Positions 1-38,413 of a DNA stretch of 38,413 nucleotides are shown one piece after another (position 1 is the first letter of the stretch; each line of letters begins with the position of its first letter). Source of the DNA: a virus; the IMG/VR virus record IMGVR_UViG_3300029442_000013, positions 1 to 38,413 of that record. One strand, given 5' to 3'. A program made the translations under genes and the position numbers. The notes beneath the pieces were generated by a model that was given only the letters and a program-made list of their open reading frames with translations, did no database searches and was not told where the DNA came from.

Positions 1-154
1 GACCTCGCCCCATTCTTCCGGCTTCGCAACTCCGTACCTTTGGAATTTTTCATAAAAACCCTTTAACTCTTTGTGAAGGTCTTTCTTGAAAGCTTGCGCT
101 TCTTCCGCCATTATTATTTTTGGTCTTTGAGAAAATTCATCGATTACTTTTTGC
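1..154. repeat. Left copy of 154-bp terminal direct repeat
   Basis: Positions 1-154 match 38260-38413 base for base except position 78 (G) against 38337 (C). The repeat lies inside a coding region and its reading frame is continuous across the joined ends, so the molecule is circular or terminally redundant. The mismatch changes one codon (Leu on the left copy, Val on the right). It is either an assembly-end overlap with a sequencing error or polymorphism, or a true short direct terminal repeat. Confidence 0.95.
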
Positions 155-1071
155 ACTTCATCAACATATTCGCCCGGCAGTGCTTTTGTGTTCTGGTAAT
201 GTGCTTTTAAATCTTCAAGCTGTTTCATGATTTGATCTTGTGTTAAAAACTTGCCCTTACCACTAATAACGGTATCAATTTCTTTGTTAATATCCCCAAT
301 ACGCGCCTGTTCTTTATTAAGTCCACCTTGACTAACAGGTATCTTTTTCTGCAACATTGTTTCAGATATTTCGTCTTTTACTGATTGCTTCATTGTTGTT
401 GATGGTTTTAATGCCGATTGGATTAATTTGTTTTCTGTTTGTTTCGGTAAAATCTTTGTCTTTGCTACGGCAAAAGGCGCACCAAGTAACGCCGCAGTCC
501 CACCACCGGCCGCCATACCAGTAAGCGCGTTAGATGATCGGCTTTCTTCGCCTGTTGTTGGCTGCAAGGCTCCGATAACTCCTCCCTGCCCTGCCATTGT
601 AGTAACCTTATTTATAAAACCGCCGGTACCGCCGCCAAGAGGCAAAAACGGCAGGGTATTACCCACCATCTCGCCTAGCTTCCCTCTCAGACTGCCCTTA
701 TTTTCAGATTCAAAACCTTTCCTGTTTTCGGCTACAAAACCGCGCATAGAATCGACATTCTCCTGGTTGCTTTTCATGCCGGTCAATTCTCTAATCTTCT
801 GCCCGCCCTCAAGAACTGTTTGCAGTGCGCCTATGCCTACCGTATTAAGACCGTGTAAAATTCCTTTAGCAAGTGGGTGTTCCGGGTCAGTTTTTAAATA
901 ATCTTTTACTGCACCCCCTATTTTATCTAATAATCCGCTGCCTTGTTCAGGAGCCGCCGCAGGTGCAGACTTGCCGCCGTACTGCTTATCAAGAACAGCG
1001 TTTATTTCCTCTGTTTTCATAGTGTCAGGAAATTGAACTATTTTCCCGTCTGGCATTTGAACATTCGGCAT
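1..1071 (-). CDS. Ejection/internal virion protein, N-terminal 357 codons (continues at 38259)
   Basis: An open frame runs from ATG at 1071 to the window edge with no stop. It joins in frame to 38259-37897, giving a 477-aa protein. The N-terminus (VQMPDGKIVQFPDTMKTEEI) resembles the short 'PDG..v.FPd.m..eeI..vl.kqy' module found at the start of many podoviral internal virion or injection proteins (family knowledge). A glycine/alanine-rich stretch near residues 135-200 could insert in a membrane. It is followed by charged helices. The start overlaps the stop of the upstream gene as TAATG, indicating translational coupling. It is the last of four ejection-type genes in a row. A DNA-injection role is inferred from position and composition. 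Confidence 0.75.
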   Translation of the reverse strand, partial: MPNVQMPDGKIVQFPDTMKTEEINAVLDKQYGGKSAPAAAPEQGSGLLDKIGGAVKDYLKTDPEHPLAKGILHGLNTVGIGALQTVLEGGQKIRELTGMKSNQENVDSMRGFVAENRKGFESENKGSLRGKLGEMVGNTLPFLPLGGGTGGFINKVTTMAGQGGVIGALQPTTGEESRSSNALTGMAAGGGTAALLGAPFAVAKTKILPKQTENKLIQSALKPSTTMKQSVKDEISETMLQKKIPVSQGGLNKEQARIGDINKEIDTVISGKGKFLTQDQIMKQLEDLKAHYQNTKALPGEYVDEVQKVIDEFSQRPKIIMAEEAQAFKKDLHKELKGFYEKFQRYGVAKPEEWGEV

Positions 1072-2604: not shown

Positions 2605-4287
2605 TTACTCTATTGCTAATACTGCTATCGCGCCGCCTGCTGCTTCTAGAAATGAACCTGCCGTTGCCGCCGATGAATAACTAACAACGGATGCTTCATA
2701 CGCCGCCTCTGCTACTCCTGCACCAGCTCCCGTCGAAGTTGTTCCTAGTGCCGTCGAAGTTGTTCCTAGTGCCGTGCTCATGGCATTGTAAAGCCCCAAT
2801 CCTGTAGATACAACGCCGACTGCTTGCATTAACGGACTCGCATTACTGTCTGTTGATGTTTGTGTCTGCTGACTTCCGGTTAAGGCTCTCAAGGCATTGC
2901 CGAATATTTCAACCCTGACAACATTCGCCTCTTCTGCTTCAATAAATAATCTATTCAAAGGTTCATATGTGGATTGTAAGTATTGCCTGATATACAGTCC
3001 AGATTTCCGCAATGTTTCTGCATCTGCTACTTCCTCTTTGGCAAATTCAGTCGCGTATCCAATATTAAAATCCTGTGATGCTCTTTCCCTGATATAATTG
3101 TCGGCGTTTAACTTCGCCACCAGACGGGCTGTATAAGTATCATAGGTGGTTTCAGTAAGTGTCTGAGCAATAGTCGTGCTATCGGGATCACCGACATACA
3201 TCGCTTTCTTGCCTATCAATGACCGGATTGTTGTGAATGAAGCCAGCGTTGCCGCCGATATTGTGCTTAATAATGCCGCAGGAACGGTTAAAGTGCCGCC
3301 GTTTATTATGTTCTGTGAATAAGCCTTGCCAGCACTGATTGTTGCGTTCCCCGATGCACCCCTTGTGGCAAGATTGGTGATGCCCAGTAATTCATGGGCA
3401 TTCTGGGACGCGGTTATATCGCCCGAATAGGCCGATATCGCATGTGCATTTGTTGTGTATCCTGAACCACCTGAAACCATAGTAACCGAAGTGACAACGC
3501 CACCCGATACATTGGCAGTCGCTGTAGCCCCCGAACCAGCACCGCCTACAATATAAACACTCGGAGTTATTGTATAGCCGCTTCCACCAGATAACATCAT
3601 GATACTGGTTATTACACCGGAATTGATAAAAGGTATTGCCGTTGCCCCGCCTCCGGCTGATTCAGCCCTTACGGAAGGAACGGCAGTATATCCATGACCG
3701 CCATCGGATAACTGGACAGCAACGATAAGTCCGGCTGAATTGGCAATTCCCCAGGCCTGTGCGCCGCTTCCGCCCGCGCCTGTTATGGTCATTTGAACCG
3801 GATTGACATAACCAGTGCCACCAGCTAAAACTTGAATTGAGGCGATTGTGCCAGTTCCTGCAGAAGAAACAAAAGCCGATGCCCCTGAGCCGCCGTACCA
3901 AGAATTGCCATCGAAAGAACCAGGGTCGTGAATAACCACAACGGGGGGATTTGTCAGAGTGTAGCCATGACCGCCGTTTAATATGTCTATTTTGGTTACT
4001 GCTCCGTCAACCACTGTAACGGATAGTGTGCAACCTGAACCCGTACCGCCTACAATCGATGCCGTTGTCGTAGTAGTATATCCGCTGCCCTGCGCGATCA
4101 TCATAATGCTCTGGATTGCGCCGGACGTACTGCCCATAATAACATTGAACTGTGCGCCAATGCCGTTAGCTATAATAATAGATGGAAGTCCCAATACTTC
4201 ATTCATTAACGTATAGGCTGTCGAAGCATATTGCTGAACCGCCGATTGCGCCCAATCAGGGACTGTTACCATTGTTGATGTTGACAT
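2605..4287 (-). CDS. Ejection-type virion protein with inserted Gly-Ser-Gly-Tyr repeats, 560 aa
   Basis: This is a 560-aa paralogue of the gene at 4287-5309. Both begin with about 40 related residues (AVQQYASTAYTLMNE against AVDYVNQSAAISLTN), and both carry a shared domain with 'QNA.EL.GI..L..RG.SG' and 'D.Y.RER..QD....YA'. Between these parts, about residues 50-290, this protein has at least five beta-repeats of the type 'I..I.vl.GG.GYT..P.v.i.GggGSGA.a.a.v..G.v', which the paralogue lacks. The C-terminus has a small tandem repeat (ALGTTST twice). The start overlaps the previous stop (TAATG). It is probably a virion/ejection component. The repeats resemble glycine-rich repeats seen in phage tail and adhesion proteins. 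Confidence 0.65.
   Translation of the reverse strand: MSTSTMVTVPDWAQSAVQQYASTAYTLMNEVLGLPSIIIANGIGAQFNVIMGSTSGAIQSIMMIAQGSGYTTTTTASIVGGTGSGCTLSVTVVDGAVTKIDILNGGHGYTLTNPPVVVIHDPGSFDGNSWYGGSGASAFVSSAGTGTIASIQVLAGGTGYVNPVQMTITGAGGSGAQAWGIANSAGLIVAVQLSDGGHGYTAVPSVRAESAGGGATAIPFINSGVITSIMMLSGGSGYTITPSVYIVGGAGSGATATANVSGGVVTSVTMVSGGSGYTTNAHAISAYSGDITASQNAHELLGITNLATRGASGNATISAGKAYSQNIINGGTLTVPAALLSTISAATLASFTTIRSLIGKKAMYVGDPDSTTIAQTLTETTYDTYTARLVAKLNADNYIRERASQDFNIGYATEFAKEEVADAETLRKSGLYIRQYLQSTYEPLNRLFIEAEEANVVRVEIFGNALRALTGSQQTQTSTDSNASPLMQAVGVVSTGLGLYNAMSTALGTTSTALGTTSTGAGAGVAEAAYEASVVSYSSAATAGSFLEAAGGAIAVLAIE
2731..2772. repeat. 21-bp tandem direct repeat, two copies
   Basis: The 21-bp unit starting CGTCGAAGTTGTTCC is present twice back to back (2731-2751, 2752-2772). 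Inside the 560-aa ejection-type gene it encodes a duplicated seven-residue ALGTTST segment near the C-terminus. The length keeps the frame, so copy number could vary without breaking the gene. Confidence 0.9.
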
Positions 4288-5309
4288 TAAGCGTTATCTC
4301 CTGCTTCTTGCTCTTTCGCGTTTGTGTTCACCGGGGTGAATGTCGGCTGTTCAATGCTTTGAATAACTTGTTTTGCCGCTTCGCTGATTGCTTTTCCGGC
4401 GTTGGTAAAACTATCGCCTATTTTATTGGATAAAACAGAGAAGACGTTGGGCTCTCTACTTGCCTTTTCTTTGTGCTCTTCTGTTGGACTAATCGGAGTC
4501 TTTTTAAATGCGGCATAAAGGGCTATGCCTGTCAATGCCGTTCCTGCAATCTCACTAAAAGCAGACGGCTTGTAATAAGGAACTGATGCCGTTCTGGTCG
4601 TTCCTAGAATTGTTCTGACTGCGTTGCCTAATATTTCGAGATTCCTTGTCGGGAGTATTTGCGCTTCATTCCATTTTTTCCAGTTGTCAGTATATTGCCC
4701 CTGCGTGTATTCCCTTTCAAATACCCCTGCCTGTCTTAATATTTCAGCGTCACGGTTTACCCTGTTACCATACTGAATAACGTCTGATAATCCCTTGTCC
4801 TGTAGGTTTCTTTCACGGACATAATCATTGTAGTAGAAATTAACCGCGAGGTCATTGATTGCGGCCATTGCCTTTTCAGATGCTTTTGCTTCTTCTGCCT
4901 GATGGTCCGAACCTCCCCACCCAAAAGCGAAAGCAGCGGTTATTGTGGGCATGGTGTCTTCCTTAAATGCCTGTATAAGTTCATCAGCTTGTTTCTGGTA
5001 GATTGCGGCAAGAAACGGATTGGTAGAAACATAACCACCAGCGATAAGAGTCGCTAGATAAGCTTCTCCATGGGCTTCTATCGAGCTTCCCGAAGTTCCC
5101 CTTACCACCAAAGCCGCAATTCCGGCCAGCTCGTTAGCATTCTGTGGCGCATATGTAGTTCCGGTATAAGGCTCGAAATTAGTAAGAGATATGGCCGCTG
5201 ATTGATTCACATAATCAACCGCCCATGTCTGCATTCCGGCTATATAGGTCGGGAGTAAATTTGTATATATCGTGGTGTTGCTGTCTGATGAACCGCCGCC
5301 GCCGCCCAC
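4287..5309 (-). CDS. Ejection/internal virion protein, 340 aa (paralogue of next gene)
   Basis: It encodes 340 aa. Shared features with the downstream 560-aa protein are 'QNANELAGIAALVVRGTSGS', 'NDYVRERNLQDKGLSDVIQYG', a conserved 'R.aeiLRqaGvf.ReYtQ' segment and a C-terminal 'EILGNAVRTILG' helix. The two genes are therefore tandem duplicates that diverged. The N-terminus is MGGGGGSSDSN, followed by an alternating amphipathic body. A weak hydrophobic segment (GTALTGIALYAAF) and a charged tail end the protein. It lies 1 nt from the GNAT-like gene and overlaps the next gene by TAATG. A T7 gp14-like role in the ejection machinery is inferred from gene order. Confidence 0.65.
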   Translation of the reverse strand: MGGGGGSSDSNTTIYTNLLPTYIAGMQTWAVDYVNQSAAISLTNFEPYTGTTYAPQNANELAGIAALVVRGTSGSSIEAHGEAYLATLIAGGYVSTNPFLAAIYQKQADELIQAFKEDTMPTITAAFAFGWGGSDHQAEEAKASEKAMAAINDLAVNFYYNDYVRERNLQDKGLSDVIQYGNRVNRDAEILRQAGVFEREYTQGQYTDNWKKWNEAQILPTRNLEILGNAVRTILGTTRTASVPYYKPSAFSEIAGTALTGIALYAAFKKTPISPTEEHKEKASREPNVFSVLSNKIGDSFTNAGKAISEAAKQVIQSIEQPTFTPVNTNAKEQEAGDNA

Positions 5310-8531: not shown

Positions 8532-9263
8532 TTATACCCTGTATTTGAGCACCGATTCGTTATGCTTTCTTGATGTTTCGTAAAACATCTTTGTTATTGG
8601 ATACTTTTTGTGGTGAACAATGGGGATTGTCGGGTCAGCCCAAAGCTCAAGGTCTAATTCGCGCAACCTCCAACAAAAAGCCAAATCCTCTCTTAGCCTG
8701 ATATTCAAACCATCATAAATAAGCGAAAAGGGATTGCCTATTTCTTCAATGACTGCCGGAGTAAAAGCGTCCAATACCTTCTTGCTGATTAATTGGAATC
8801 CGTTTCCGGCAGAATCCACCTTAAATAATTCCTCTGGTATTTCATCTTCCCAAGGAATAACCTTGCCGTTTGGTTGTGTCTTGAATATGTTTGGCCTGTG
8901 GGGATAGTTTGATAGATAGGTAATCCCCATTACAACGTCTTTTTTGTGGTCGATCATCTTGCCGATGACATTACCGATCTCCTTGCATTCCGTATCCGAA
9001 TCAAGGAAAAACAAGTAATCAACCTTTTTATCCTGTGCCATTTTAAAGATGATGTTCCTGTTTTCATCTACTGCCGCACCCTCGATATTAAAAACAGAAA
9101 AGTTATAGCCTTGTCTTCCCAAGTGCCATGCCATCATTTCGGCAGTGCCGCAACATTCTGACTTTATATCGTCCCTGTTGGGAATCCCTATTGCAACATG
9201 AATACCCTTCTGCCATATATAACCCGCTTCTTGAGCCTTATGAATATCATCAACTAAACTCAT
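8532..9263 (-). CDS. Glycosyltransferase family 2-like protein, 243 aa
   Basis: The start is placed at 9263 (MSLVDDIHKA) because AAAGGATTAAA precedes it. The longer in-frame extension reads through the upstream hairpin and is unlikely. The protein has 'HVAIGIPNRDD' at the first strand, 'KKVDYLFFLDSDTECKEIG' with a DSD (DXD-type, metal and nucleotide-sugar binding), 'VMGITYLSNYPHRPNIF', and 'REDLAFCWRLRELDLELWAD' near the end, the (E)D..fc.R position seen in GT-A glycosyltransferases. Its place in the head/tail operon suggests modification of a virion protein or of another phage product. The sugar and acceptor are unknown. Confidence 0.75.
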   Translation of the reverse strand: MSLVDDIHKAQEAGYIWQKGIHVAIGIPNRDDIKSECCGTAEMMAWHLGRQGYNFSVFNIEGAAVDENRNIIFKMAQDKKVDYLFFLDSDTECKEIGNVIGKMIDHKKDVVMGITYLSNYPHRPNIFKTQPNGKVIPWEDEIPEELFKVDSAGNGFQLISKKVLDAFTPAVIEEIGNPFSLIYDGLNIRLREDLAFCWRLRELDLELWADPTIPIVHHKKYPITKMFYETSRKHNESVLKYRV

Positions 9264-9282
9264 TTTAATCCTTTCTGTGTGA

Positions 9283-9305
9283 GGGGAAGGGACCCAGCCT
9301 TCCCC
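9283..9305 (-). terminator. Strong hairpin after the coat/decoration genes
   Basis: GGGGAAGG (9283-9290) pairs perfectly with CCTTCCCC (9298-9305) across a 7-nt loop. It lies in the 56-bp gap between the decoration-like gene and the glycosyltransferase-like gene. On the minus strand the stem is not followed by a U-run (TCACACAG), so it is more likely a partial terminator, RNA-processing or 3'-stabilising element than a full intrinsic terminator. Confidence 0.5.
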
Positions 9306-9319
9306 CCGCAGATTAAAAG

Positions 9320-10021
9320 TTAATTGGTAAAAGTGACATACGACTGCGTAGAACCGATAATCACAACCGTACAATCCACTGCACCATCAGAAGCAACGGT
9401 CATTACTGCCCCCTTTGCCACGTTCTGATAGCCCGCCGGCTTCATGCCCATAGTGACATATGCAGTCGTGCTCTTTGCAATCGTCACCAGAGTATTGGTA
9501 GCGTTCAATACGGTAATGTTAGCCGTAGAAGTCACGGTTCCGGCAGTTGCCAACACCAGATCGACATAAATATTATCTGGCGCACCGTTAGCATCGAATA
9601 CATTAACTGCCGTAGTTCCATTAGTATTAACTGCCTTGCAGAAGTAATTCCTGCCGAGGTTCGGAAGCGTCTGAGGTGAAGACACCAACCAATCAAGCAG
9701 AGCACCATATCCCGTGATAACGATTGTCTCATTCGGTTTCAGGGTATAAGTTGCCTTGCTATTAATGGTATCGGCCACGTTAGTGTTCGCATTCGTACCG
9801 GGCTGAATGGTAATGTCGTATGTAGTGCCATTGTTATAGACGGCATACATCTTCTTCTGCATCATCGTTCCCTGTAAAGTCAGCAATGACGGCAGGGTTA
9901 AGGTTACGCCGCTGCCAGAAATGTTGATCTGGTCATCAGTCGTAAGCGCGGTATAATTCGCAGTCTTAACCACAATGTTTGTCGGGGAAAACCCTAATTT
10001 TTCAAAAAATGCTAAAGACAT
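9320..10021 (-). CDS. Head decoration/stabilisation-like protein, 233 aa
   Basis: A 233-aa, nearly all-beta, Thr/Asn/Val-rich protein without enzymatic motifs, preceded by an AAAGGAGATAAATT ribosome site like that of the coat gene. It sits directly after the coat gene, the usual place of a decoration or head-fibre protein. Strands such as 'GVTLTLPSLLTLQGTMM' followed by 'KKMYAVYNNGTTYDITIQPG' resemble beta-domains found in head-fibre or tail-accessory proteins. The C-terminal half carries a second beta-domain (residues 120-233). The role is inferred from position and composition. Confidence 0.5.
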   Translation of the reverse strand: MSLAFFEKLGFSPTNIVVKTANYTALTTDDQINISGSGVTLTLPSLLTLQGTMMQKKMYAVYNNGTTYDITIQPGTNANTNVADTINSKATYTLKPNETIVITGYGALLDWLVSSPQTLPNLGRNYFCKAVNTNGTTAVNVFDANGAPDNIYVDLVLATAGTVTSTANITVLNATNTLVTIAKSTTAYVTMGMKPAGYQNVAKGAVMTVASDGAVDCTVVIIGSTQSYVTFTN

Positions 10022-33822: not shown

Positions 33823-36273
33823 TTATTTTGCCTTTAATTTCTTGCAAATTATGTATGTCGGTTTCGGAATAATCATTTTAATCGGATTAACCGCTTCTCC
33901 CATTTGCCAATCATGACCTTCCGGCAATCCCACAGTGACCTCCTCCGATGGCCATAAACCAATAGATGTCTCGTCAATCTCATAGTCTTCATTAATAACC
34001 TGCAATAATGACTTGCCGGATATTACTCTTGCTTTCATTTCGGCTAATTCAGTGTCAGAAGGCGTTATACAGACAATTTCTTTTGTGTTGTCATATTGTG
34101 GGAACGGGTGAGCAATATTAACCGGATCGCCTCCATTGCCGAAGCACGGGTGGTCAGATGACGAGAATGTTGCTAATACCTTTTTGGTCGATTTGTCCCT
34201 GAGAATAAAAATCCAGTAAACCTCGCCGGAAGACGTTACATAGCGTTGTTTCGCATAAAAATATGTTCCTTCCATTGGTGCACTCAGATAGATATTAGTT
34301 GTATAAGATGTGGGTATCAGCGATACCATACCAGCAATTCGAGCATCAACTAATTGAGGATAAGAAGTTTTAATTTGTGGGTAGAAGCCATACTCACCGC
34401 CGGGCAATGTTAATTCTGCATCACTGATGGTAGATACCTCTCCATAACTTGTTTTTAAAACTGATTGTGAAACGGAACTAGCCGGGGGATTTGTGCTGAT
34501 TCCGGTTAAAAGACTGCCATTAACGGCAGGAAGTTGCGCCGAACCGTTAAGCTGAACAACATTGCCTGAAGATGAACCAGCTATTAAATAAGCCGCTGAC
34601 CCTAATGTTCCACCGGCTCCGATGGCAAGAGTGCTTCCCTCCGTTGCCGTCAAGGTCATGCTGTTAGAAACGGATAATGTCTTTCCGGCAGTTACCGAAA
34701 GCCCTGTTACTGTAGCGGAATTCCCGCTAATATTCGTCTGGTCTCCGGTGTTTGTGCCGCTTACACTGACTGCCCCTGCTCCGATTGTCAAAGCAGAAGT
34801 ATTTGCAACATTCCCTTTTAACGTAACTGCGCCTGTATTAACGGTTAATGCTGTGGTCAATGTGGCATTTGTTACTGTTCCGGCATTACCTGTTACGCTT
34901 GTCTGGTCACCGGAGTTAGTTCCTGTTAATCCCAAATCAGCCTTTAGTGTTGCCAATGAGTTGACTTCCGGCACACCAGCACTTGCGGTTTTTCTGTAGA
35001 TAAGGCTTGCCGTTGCCATATCGTCCATTTTAGCTAATGTAACGGCTTTATTCGCTATTGTTAGCGAAGTCGCGCCCGTGACATCACCAGTATGTGTTGC
35101 GTTGGTTACAAGCCCGCTGTATTGAGAATTAGTAGCATTATCTCCGGTATTCGTGCCGGAAACAGAAGCATCGAGGGGGACGGTCAAGGTTTTGCTGGTA
35201 GTACCTCCTGCAATCGTAAAACCGACAGATTGCGCGGTTTCGGTCAATCCATTAATGGTCGTAAAAGCACCCGTTGACGGTGTGTTTCCACCTATCGGTC
35301 CCGGTGAAGCAAGATTTACGGAGTTAGCAAAGATATTCCAGTATGCCCCTACGGTTGCCTGATCGCCTGCTGGTGTGTTATTGGTGTTACACACTATCTG
35401 GTCACCGACTGAAACGGAAGTACCGGAAGCGCCGCCGACCTTACCAGCCGAACTGCACTTATAAACGTCTCCCGAATTACCAGCCGGATAATTAGGATTG
35501 CCAACGCAAGCGATTGCGCCTTTGTATGTAATTGCGTCAATAGAGGGTTTATTGGAGATTGAAGTCGGACCTGTAGTTGCTGACCAATCAATATACTGGC
35601 TTGCTAATGCATTGGCGATTGTTGCCGTAGTTGCCGTAGTTGCCGATTGTGCTGTGGTTGCCGTTGCCGCATTTCCTGTTATATTGGAATCAGTATAAGC
35701 AATGGTTTTCCGGTTTGAGCCTGTTGTGCGTGTAAAATACAGGGAATCGCCGTTAAATTCCATTGCGCCCGTCTCGGGAATTGCAAGTAAGGTTCCCGAG
35801 GCGAGTTTTATGGGTGCAGTTCCAGCCGTTGCAGTTCCGGCAGCGCAAGAAATGGTCTTGTTGGTCAATGTCTGTGTATCTGTTGTCCCAACAATAGTGC
35901 CGGAAGGTTTGGTGAGTGACGAATCCCACGATGCACCATTGGATACGGGAATCCCACCCGCAGGGTAAACCTGATGGGCTAAGTTTGTAAGGTTAGAACC
36001 GTCAACAGCTGGTAATTTTGCACTTCCGTCAAGCTGGACAAGATTATATGCGGAAGTTCCGGTTGCAATAAAAGCCGAATTTTGCAGTGTACCACCAGCA
36101 CCGATGTTAAGTGTTGAGCTGTCAGTTCCCGCAAGTGTGATAGTGTTATCAACCGAAAGAACTTTCCCCGATGTAATCACTATCTCGGCTGTTGTCGGGA
36201 CATTATTGAAGTTATCGTCCAGCCACGATAATGGAAAACTGCCGGATGCCGTGCCGAAAACATGCTGTGTCAT
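33823..36273 (-). CDS. Tail fibre protein 1, 816 aa
   Basis: It encodes 816 aa built of repeated beta units: 'SGTNTGDQT', 'TGNAGTVTNATLTTALT', 'LVQLDGSAKLPAVDGSNLT' (which recurs with variations at residues about 80 and 560), 'TLSVSNSMTLTATEGSTLAIGAGG' type repeats and 'GIPVSNG.SWDSS'. This is the common repeat set of phage side fibres. The final part (residues 640-816) is a distinct, more charged domain with 'YFYAKQRYVTSSGEVYWIFILR'. The N-terminus (FPLSWLDDNFNNV) is typical of the virion-attachment start. Confidence 0.75.
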   Translation of the reverse strand: MTQHVFGTASGSFPLSWLDDNFNNVPTTAEIVITSGKVLSVDNTITLAGTDSSTLNIGAGGTLQNSAFIATGTSAYNLVQLDGSAKLPAVDGSNLTNLAHQVYPAGGIPVSNGASWDSSLTKPSGTIVGTTDTQTLTNKTISCAAGTATAGTAPIKLASGTLLAIPETGAMEFNGDSLYFTRTTGSNRKTIAYTDSNITGNAATATTAQSATTATTATIANALASQYIDWSATTGPTSISNKPSIDAITYKGAIACVGNPNYPAGNSGDVYKCSSAGKVGGASGTSVSVGDQIVCNTNNTPAGDQATVGAYWNIFANSVNLASPGPIGGNTPSTGAFTTINGLTETAQSVGFTIAGGTTSKTLTVPLDASVSGTNTGDNATNSQYSGLVTNATHTGDVTGATSLTIANKAVTLAKMDDMATASLIYRKTASAGVPEVNSLATLKADLGLTGTNSGDQTSVTGNAGTVTNATLTTALTVNTGAVTLKGNVANTSALTIGAGAVSVSGTNTGDQTNISGNSATVTGLSVTAGKTLSVSNSMTLTATEGSTLAIGAGGTLGSAAYLIAGSSSGNVVQLNGSAQLPAVNGSLLTGISTNPPASSVSQSVLKTSYGEVSTISDAELTLPGGEYGFYPQIKTSYPQLVDARIAGMVSLIPTSYTTNIYLSAPMEGTYFYAKQRYVTSSGEVYWIFILRDKSTKKVLATFSSSDHPCFGNGGDPVNIAHPFPQYDNTKEIVCITPSDTELAEMKARVISGKSLLQVINEDYEIDETSIGLWPSEEVTVGLPEGHDWQMGEAVNPIKMIIPKPTYIICKKLKAK

Positions 36274-36275
36274 TA

Positions 36276-36650
36276 TTATTCTCCTAAACTATTAATATGG
36301 TTTTCGTAATCTTCCCATCTAACACCAAGTTTTTCCGCAAATATCATTTCAAAGACCGTAGCTATCTGATGTTGTTTATAATAGGGTGCGTCTTTCTGAT
36401 CTCCCGGCTCTCCGTCTTTTCCCGACTCCTCAAAAGCCTTATCGAAAGCAGCAATATCTTCTTCCTTGATACCTTCTTTCCAGCAAATATAGGCTTCGAT
36501 AAACTCATGTAAAAACACCAGTGCTTGGTAGTCGCTGGGCATTTCGGCAATGATGAATCTGAACAGGTCAACGCCGGGATGATAAATATAGTCCCCAACA
36601 TAATTATTCCGCATTTTATTGTATGGTTTACTTGTCTGGTAAATTTCCAT
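36276..36650 (-). CDS. Small HEFIEA-motif protein, 124 aa
   Basis: It encodes 124 aa. The motif 'ALVFLHEFIEAYICWKEGI' at about residues 46-64 with a following '...DIAAFDKAFE' and 'APYYKQHQIATVFEMIFAEKLGV' is reminiscent of a widespread hypothetical protein with 'HE.iEa.lc...Gi.e..i..fD..fe'. The HExxE and YxxHQ residues could bind a metal. It is coupled with the ATP-grasp gene (TAATG). It may be a structural minor protein or act with the ATP-grasp enzyme. Function unknown. Confidence 0.55.
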   Translation of the reverse strand: MEIYQTSKPYNKMRNNYVGDYIYHPGVDLFRFIIAEMPSDYQALVFLHEFIEAYICWKEGIKEEDIAAFDKAFEESGKDGEPGDQKDAPYYKQHQIATVFEMIFAEKLGVRWEDYENHINSLGE

Positions 36651-37897
36651 TACATCTCCAATCCGAATTGATGACCGTCTTTAACCATTTCTTCGGCTTC
36701 TTCTAGCCTTATATGGTGATACTCTAAATCAAGGCAGATGACCTGTTCAGCGCATTCATTAACCCTTGCAACGGCTTCTTTTAAAGTATTGCCCTGTGCC
36801 GCCACAGCCCCGAAAAAGCCGGACGATTCGTTAGGGACACAATAGTAATTGCCTTTGTGCTTATAAGAGTGCCTCAACTTAATATTGTTTTTAATCTCTT
36901 TGGGAAAATCTACACAAACTTCCTGTTCTTCATTCCACGATGAAGTCAGTATAAGCATTGCTCCGTATTCGTCTTTGTATTCCATCTTCGGCATATCGCC
37001 ATTAGCAACATCAAAAACATCCTGGGCAAATGATGTATAGCTTTCGCAAATACCCTCACCAGGCGGAGAACCGAAACGTGCGGTTAAGTCGGTGAACCGA
37101 ACTGCACCGGATTCGTTAATTCTTGCCTCTGTGGAATAAGCCCCTCTGTACCCTCTCTTTTTAAATTCAGGTGACATCTTGTCATTGATATTTTTCAAAA
37201 CATCGGGGCAATCTTCGACTATCCGGTAAATGTACCACTGATCTTTTTTCTCGTATCCGATAGTTCCTGTTTTACTGAATCTCCCGTCTATGTTGTAGCC
37301 GTCCCACCCGCTTTCAACGAGTGCCTTAAATGAGTTTTGAATTAATAATTCGACTGTATCAGCGCCTTTTTGCCCCAATTTATTCCGCATGAAAGTGAGC
37401 CACGGCATAAAGGTCTTCATGTTGTGATAATGCTTTGTGTCGAAATCTCCCCTATTGTAAGATGCTTTAATCCATTTGTCTGTTTTGCCAGTGAGATATT
37501 CAATAGCATCATCCAGACCCTCGCTGATGTAAGTCTTGATTATCGGCAATTCTACCCTCTGCAATGTATCAAGGAACAGTTTGCGATTAATCTCTATCTC
37601 AGTGGATAAGCCGGACCCGAAAGCCCGTCTGTTTTCTTCCCACATTCTATTGCATATCTCGCCGTCATACTCGCCGGGGAATATAATTAAATCAGCTTTA
37701 TCTTTGTACTGTTCAAAGTCATCCACCTTTTCAACGCCGTCTAAACCTGAACCGATTTGATCGTCTCTGTTTTTTGGTTGCCGTCCTAAAATGGGCGTGT
37801 AATGCCAGACCTTAGCCGCCTTTTCAGCCATTGCCTCAGCGATATAGGCGTGATCTCCACGGTCAACTAGCAATACTTTTTGATGGTCAATTCCCAT
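36650..37897 (-). CDS. ATP-grasp (PurD-like) enzyme in the virion operon, 415 aa
   Basis: It encodes 415 aa. The N-terminal domain 'KVLLVDRGDHAYIAEAMAEKA' and 'ADLIIFPGEYDGEI' resembles a Rossmann-like biotin carboxylase N-domain. The ATP-grasp portion shows 'KWIKASYNRGDFDT' (141-154, nucleotide-binding Lys), 'ESGWDGYNIDGRF' (195-207) and 'YRGAYSTEARINESGAVRFT' through 'LTARFGSPPGEG' (250-282), matching PurD 'G.l..t..g..viEfN.RfGdPe'. The metal-binding Glu and Asn are replaced by Asp270 and Thr272, so activity or substrate may differ. It is coupled at both sides (TAATG). Confidence 0.7.
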   Translation of the reverse strand: MGIDHQKVLLVDRGDHAYIAEAMAEKAAKVWHYTPILGRQPKNRDDQIGSGLDGVEKVDDFEQYKDKADLIIFPGEYDGEICNRMWEENRRAFGSGLSTEIEINRKLFLDTLQRVELPIIKTYISEGLDDAIEYLTGKTDKWIKASYNRGDFDTKHYHNMKTFMPWLTFMRNKLGQKGADTVELLIQNSFKALVESGWDGYNIDGRFSKTGTIGYEKKDQWYIYRIVEDCPDVLKNINDKMSPEFKKRGYRGAYSTEARINESGAVRFTDLTARFGSPPGEGICESYTSFAQDVFDVANGDMPKMEYKDEYGAMLILTSSWNEEQEVCVDFPKEIKNNIKLRHSYKHKGNYYCVPNESSGFFGAVAAQGNTLKEAVARVNECAEQVICLDLEYHHIRLEEAEEMVKDGHQFGLEM

Positions 37898-38412
37898 TAT
37901 TCCTCACCGTATATCTTTTGCTTGTCCGACTGCGTAGCTTCAACTGCGGCGGCTTTGGAAACTTGAGGGATAACACCTCCGATTGACGGTTTTTGTCTTG
38001 CGTCCCTAATTGCCATTGCCAACTTGGATTTTATATAAGGATGATCTATAAGCAACGTCCCCACATATTTTTTAAGAGAGACACCACCACTTAATACAGC
38101 GGGAATTAATTTTATGAGATTTGTGTTTTTAATCCTGCCAACTGCTCTCTCCAAAACCTTGTTGACCTCTAACAATGCTCCTTCTTCTTTATTCAATGCC
38201 GATAATTCAGGGAATTGGTCAACCAAACCCTCTCTAAAGGCCGATGCCATTTTCGCCCTGACCTCGCCCCATTCTTCCGGCTTCGCAACTCCGTACCTTT
38301 GGAATTTTTCATAAAAACCCTTTAACTCTTTGTGAACGTCTTTCTTGAAAGCTTGCGCTTCTTCCGCCATTATTATTTTTGGTCTTTGAGAAAATTCATC
38401 GATTACTTTTTG
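37897..38412 (-). CDS. Ejection/internal virion protein, C-terminal part (5' end lies at 1071)
   Basis: This is the C-terminal part of the 477-aa protein that begins at 1071. The ATG at 38370 (MAEEAQAFKK) is only Met321 of that protein: the same codon occurs at 111 in the left repeat, and 1071 minus 111 is exactly 320 codons. The segment is a charged helical region (KELKGFYEKFQRYGVAKPEE) followed by a hydrophobic patch (LIKLIPAVLSGG) and a basic tail. Its stop overlaps the next start as TAATG. Read alone it would be mis-annotated as a 157-aa protein. Confidence 0.8.
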   Translation of the reverse strand, partial: QKVIDEFSQRPKIIMAEEAQAFKKDVHKELKGFYEKFQRYGVAKPEEWGEVRAKMASAFREGLVDQFPELSALNKEEGALLEVNKVLERAVGRIKNTNLIKLIPAVLSGGVSLKKYVGTLLIDHPYIKSKLAMAIRDARQKPSIGGVIPQVSKAAAVEATQSDKQKIYGEE

Positions 38413-38413
38413 C
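38260..38413. repeat. Right copy of 154-bp terminal direct repeat
   Basis: Duplicate of positions 1-154 with one substitution (38337). Joining 38259 to 1 restores a single open gene on the minus strand. Unit genome length would be about 38,259 bp. Confidence 0.95.

Follow-up and report, generated by a model that had tools for sequence, protein, structure and literature searches.

A PurD-fold ATP-grasp gene and a small putative metal protein among the late genes of uncultured tailed phages

Why would a tailed phage keep a relative of the GAR synthetase PurD among its virion genes? The question is raised by the window, by which I mean the whole 38,413-nucleotide stretch of DNA analysed here (positions 1 to 38,413 of IMG/VR virus record IMGVR_UViG_3300029442_000013), where a sequence-only reading had picked out a PurD-like ATP-grasp gene lying between a putative ejection protein and a small protein named here after its HEFIEA motif.

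The locus and its late operon

Both open reading frames lie where that reading had placed them, and the features that matter for the argument are as follows:

36650..37897, minus strand: PurD-fold ATP-grasp protein P0001, family A, 415 residues, assigned by profile match and AlphaFold model
36276..36650, minus strand: HEFIEA protein P0002, 124 residues, with an HExxE helix and invariant D70, H94 and E101; a possible degenerate zincin
37897..38413, minus strand: 3' part of the upstream protein gene (477 residues), ejection-type by position, with a TAATG overlap with the ligase gene
1..1071, minus strand: 5' part of the same gene, which spans the record ends
33823..36273, minus strand: putative tail fibre, the next gene downstream, 816 residues, with a role suggested by composition
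4287..5309, minus strand: DNA ejection protein by a weak match (phrog_4287, E=4.9e-4), 340 residues, earlier in the late operon

Bases 1-154 of the record repeat bases 38260-38413 with one mismatch, and from this 154-bp direct end overlap it follows that the genome is probably complete and circularly permuted, at about 38.26 kb, and that the upstream gene encodes 477 residues, extending from 1071 across the overlap as far as 37897. The proposed virion-operon setting holds, since terminase, portal, capsid and the weak DNA-ejection match are all encoded on the strand of the ligase and a Pfam scan detects an SU10-type portal and adaptor; the proposed translational coupling fits as well, because one-base TAATG overlaps join the ligase gene both to the upstream gene and to HEFIEA. 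The flanking roles fared less evenly: the neighbour described as the last ejection protein is upstream and coupled, but its gene is split by the record ends and its role is positional, and an 816-residue gene does follow where tail fibres had been expected, but its fibre role comes from position and composition, neither protein having a match in Pfam or PHROGs. A glycosyltransferase-like protein is also encoded within the virion operon (8532-9374, minus strand; phrog_34859, E=4.2e-6). The absence of purine-synthesis genes is confirmed for the window, with no purine family among the 43 proteins scanned (Pfam, E<=0.001) and neither PurM nor PurC domains in its record.

A PurD fold with an altered active site

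As a single sequence the 415-residue protein retrieves no ATP-grasp family from Pfam, PHROGs, NCBIfam or the PDB; its family profile does, reaching PurD entry 2yw2 at E=4.2e-8 with nine sequences and at E=2.1e-20 with 51. The AlphaFold model (mean pLDDT 94.9) aligns with 2yw2 from end to end (Z 31.2, rmsd 3.0, 372 residues, 17% identity, within the 12-18% identity to PurD entries seen in fold alignments), and Foldseek matches it to PurD at 4.2e-22. Profile, Foldseek and fold alignment thus agree on a PurD-type ATP-grasp fold spanning the entire protein, so that the earlier assignment stands and the window protein is, on its predicted structure, a full-length PurD fold. In BFVD no viral fold came close, the best match having E 4.6e-9 and TM 0.48.

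Active-site positions were compared among proteins of 340-480 residues only, 51 from family A and 47 from a second PurD-like phage family, B (69 loci in all), against six PurD sequences (L085, L086, L087, L090, L091 and L092), two of which are annotated purD (L086, L087), while for L085, L090 and L092 a purine operon is suggested by ORF sizes alone, by eye, and L091 is ambiguous. Within family A (n=51), E102, E195, E216, K218, G252, R274 and P278 are found in 100%, with E216 replacing a PurD Asp, and R105, in 98%, replaces a PurD Lys; D270 stands for the PurD Glu in 96%, E257 occurs in 96% where PurD has Gly, and K144, E195, D270 and R274 are present in 96-100%. The position of PurD's Asn is Cys in 78% and Thr in 21% of family A and Thr in 47/47 of family B, and for the window protein the exchange of the PurD metal pair Glu/Asn for Asp/Thr had been read correctly (D270, T272). 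These family-A positions presumably have the ATP-binding, Mg-binding and catalytic roles that I assign to them from general ATP-grasp knowledge.

Family A therefore shares with PurD the full-length fold and most ATP-site positions and differs from it in the metal pair, now Asp with Cys or Thr, in the extra E257, and, in the alignment against the six PurD sequences, in lacking the GGREHA substrate loop, the DHKR/GPNTGGMGA segment and the RFGDPE signature. Judged from these motifs, the old PurD substrate has seemingly been lost and the ATP machinery kept. The ligase family is under strong purifying selection: dN/dS could be computed for 11 of 14 pairs and ranges from 0.023 to 0.267, 10 of these 11 lying at or below 0.13, although several pairs have saturated dS and some very few changes. 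In one member (L079:7959-10310) the D-x-C-x-R motif of the ligase is interrupted by an insert, roughly 340 residues long, whose ends are intein-like and whose matches in the PDB are inteins (E about 1e-3).

Relatives, gene neighbours and the HEFIEA protein

Relatives were gathered from IMG/VR, beginning with one at 68% and continuing with 24 loci found through HEFIEA and 58 through the ligase, and they establish that many uncultured tailed phages carry a PurD relative beside large late-gene proteins, usually together with a small putative metal protein. In the tree, the 49 core proteins of family A and the 47 of family B form separate clades (supports 1.0 and 0.967), and a support of 0.743 sets the phage families together apart from PurD. 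Scores had assigned L010 and L014 to A, but their place in the tree is with B. Searches of 50,697 annotated phage records by tblastn gave no match for P0001, for the HEFIEA proteins or for the family-A protein of L025, four matches for L014 and 30 records for L017; two matches of P0003 at E values of 6-7 were taken as chance. Among the 7 of the 30 L017-matched records that were examined, MW202796 (Caudoviricetes sp. ct2os315) is the only clear phage relative, and its PurD-like gene, at a place with no annotated feature, directly follows genes of 491 and 505 residues in the late region. Unlike the window family, this gene and family B retain the metal Glu and the GxTGExG segment and belong to the separate clade, and no HEFIEA was found in the stretches of MW202796 that were read. 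A single, narrow scan of a genome collection with A8 returned 86 candidate stretches and confirmed none of them; cellular or prophage relatives may exist.

Where neighbourhoods are counted by distinct protein, each set of identical proteins enters once, leaving 55 from family A and 50 from family B; for the overlap counts, gene pairs were restricted to genes of at least 100 residues and gaps of at most 300 bp, with genes called as the longest ORF and some starts wrong as a result. Of the 58 loci retrieved with the ligase as sole query, 47 have HEFIEA adjoining it, and four of the 11 others have genes cut by a contig end. The reverse scan finds a ligase nearby in 13 of 24 HEFIEA loci, one of them on the opposite strand, and none in 11, two of these being cut by a contig end. 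Counted by distinct proteins, HEFIEA lies within 1.5 kb on the same strand for 44/55 family-A ligases vs 2/50 in family B. Genes of at least 400 residues occur within two genes upstream in 37/53 cases for family A and 44/50 for family B. Overlaps of 4 or 1 bases with the gene upstream are found for 31 of 43 family-B pairs vs 133 of 716 other pairs; the family-A figure, 9 of 36, is near the base rate.

What these upstream proteins are is hinted at in a few loci: a DNA transfer protein match for L017 (E 0.004), in L093 a DNA ejection match (E 0.001) for the protein encoded two genes upstream of the last large one, a tail-lysin or tape-measure match in L084 (E 3e-4), and a PBECR5 nuclease domain in the giant upstream protein of L047. 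Most of the others have no ejection-family match, and no common motif is conserved in their C-terminal tails when compared by eye; the label of ejection proteins is therefore mainly positional, since so few match a known family. Neither of the outcomes that would have spoken against the sequence-only reading was seen: the family profile does reach ATP-grasp, and the relatives do not sit among metabolic genes. Two viral contigs carry two ligase-HEFIEA modules each (L037/L043, 94 kb; L038/L041, 66 kb). HNH-type ORFs lie between ligase and HEFIEA in L056, L059, L060 and L075 (by eye; L060 by cluster) and one is in frame with HEFIEA (L039:6965-7975), all of them possible homing endonucleases.

Ten positions of HEFIEA are invariant in 45 sequences (G19, H48, E49, E52, D70, E81, P89, Y90, H94 and E101), including an HExxE motif rather than the HExxH of zincins. 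Its AlphaFold model (pLDDT 95.9) has no Foldseek match at E<=0.001, and the fold comparison is led by zincin metallopeptidases at Z scores of 5.0-5.5 that may be at chance level (IrrE 5.5, CapP 5.3, abylysin 5.2); HEFIEA is possibly a degenerate zincin. Seven of 21 members match Fe_dep_repr_C (best E 4e-4), which was treated as chance or as a shared metal helix. Four of 21 members are fused to an Erv1/ALR sulfhydryl oxidase (Evr1_Alr) domain, fusions being found in L019, L020, L024, L025 (L025:7869-8570) and others, and across the Erv1/ALR part the HEFIEA profile hits a sulfhydryl oxidase of known structure at E=1e-12; this domain exceeds the Pfam cut-off in 14/47 phage records and 0/14 control prokaryotes, and the window has none. 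Where HEFIEA genes stand without a ligase, inspection by eye shows terminase, portal or chaperonin-like genes next to them, with GroEL-like and GroES-like ORFs nearby at L005:2521-3984 and L021:3250-3594.

What the ligase may do

That the gene still supplies nucleotides as a GAR synthetase is hardly credible, for although its closest solved relatives are PurD, the PurD signature and substrate loops are lost and PurM and PurC turn up in 0/47 phage records, with 14/14 controls positive. Improbable, too, is the inactive structural relative that the sequence-only reading had offered as one of its options, a catalytically dead PurD relative serving as a structural or assembly protein: it would account for the missing Mg-binding Asn and substrate motifs, but it is disfavoured by the invariant catalytic positions across divergent members, the acid at 257 in place of Gly, the low dN/dS and the intein-like insert within a catalytic motif. 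The other option, an unusual ligase and not an enzyme of purine metabolism, has good support in the PurD fold, the ATP-site positions kept, the substrate motifs lost, the late context and the absence of purine genes.

Such a ligase need not concern the virion. It could act late in metabolism, making a small molecule or altering an envelope precursor, its place being a habitual insertion point, and PurD is itself a small-molecule ligase; LUZ24-like phage UFV-P2 likewise encodes an ATP-grasp protein (ORF28, 291 residues), which PMC3890496 places near amidoligase and glutamine amidotransferase genes. I consider this unlikely, because ORF28 is an early gene on the strand opposite the late genes, according to the same paper, whereas the window ligase belongs to a late operon, and both PurD-like families have their place among late genes, behind large proteins, with PurM and PurC absent. 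Somewhat less unlikely is a ligase that enters the particle along with the internal proteins, leaves it together with the DNA and acts early on a host protein or metabolite in counter-defence or takeover; its gene ends runs of large late proteins, one of which carries the PBECR5 nuclease domain, but chance can also place the opening gene of a later module there, and the gene downstream in the window resembles a fibre, not a takeover gene.

I tentatively favour, with something short of even confidence, an active PurD-descended ATP-grasp ligase that has taken on a new substrate and acts on internal virion proteins or alongside them. Such an enzyme would use ATP to phosphorylate a carboxylate, which it would then couple to a nucleophile such as an amine. 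Its synthesis would be late and would keep pace with that of the last internal or ejection protein; its most likely target would be that protein, or a different protein of the particle, while the virion is assembled, and HEFIEA would be a metal-dependent partner acting on the same substrate. The fold, the ATP-site positions kept, the loss of the PurD substrate motifs, the selection, the late-gene position and the partner gene are computed results, and the overlaps in family B and the TAATG junctions of the window also speak for this reading; the activity, substrate, packaging and time of action of the ligase, like the chemistry of HEFIEA, are what I infer here. Against the reading count the lost Mg-binding Asn, the near-base-rate coupling in family A, the few ejection matches upstream and the lack of a conserved C-terminal tail in the upstream proteins, together with the 11 of 24 HEFIEA loci without a ligase and the presence of HEFIEA near only 2 of 50 family-B ligases. 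More speculatively, the PurD-derived ligase and the HExxE metal protein, joined in some cases by a sulfhydryl oxidase, might form an undescribed phage module that covalently matures or travels with ejection proteins, possibly entering the host with the DNA.

The literature searched contained no report of a PurD-like virion-operon gene and, with Iyer 2009 outside that comparison, the chemistry belongs to a known class while the family and its setting are new relative to that literature. R2K ATP-grasp peptide ligases of jumbo phages are predicted to modify proteins, according to PMC7824862, and are set apart here as another ATP-grasp family by name alone. Two related families with a common gene position now span more than 100 viral loci, including a window protein absent from Pfam, PHROGs and NCBIfam, and the gene pair, small and readily expressed, makes the question directly testable. 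If the favoured reading or the packaged one is true, the phage would be ligating a virion protein at the expense of ATP or sending in a ligase along with its DNA, and either would be unusual among late functions.
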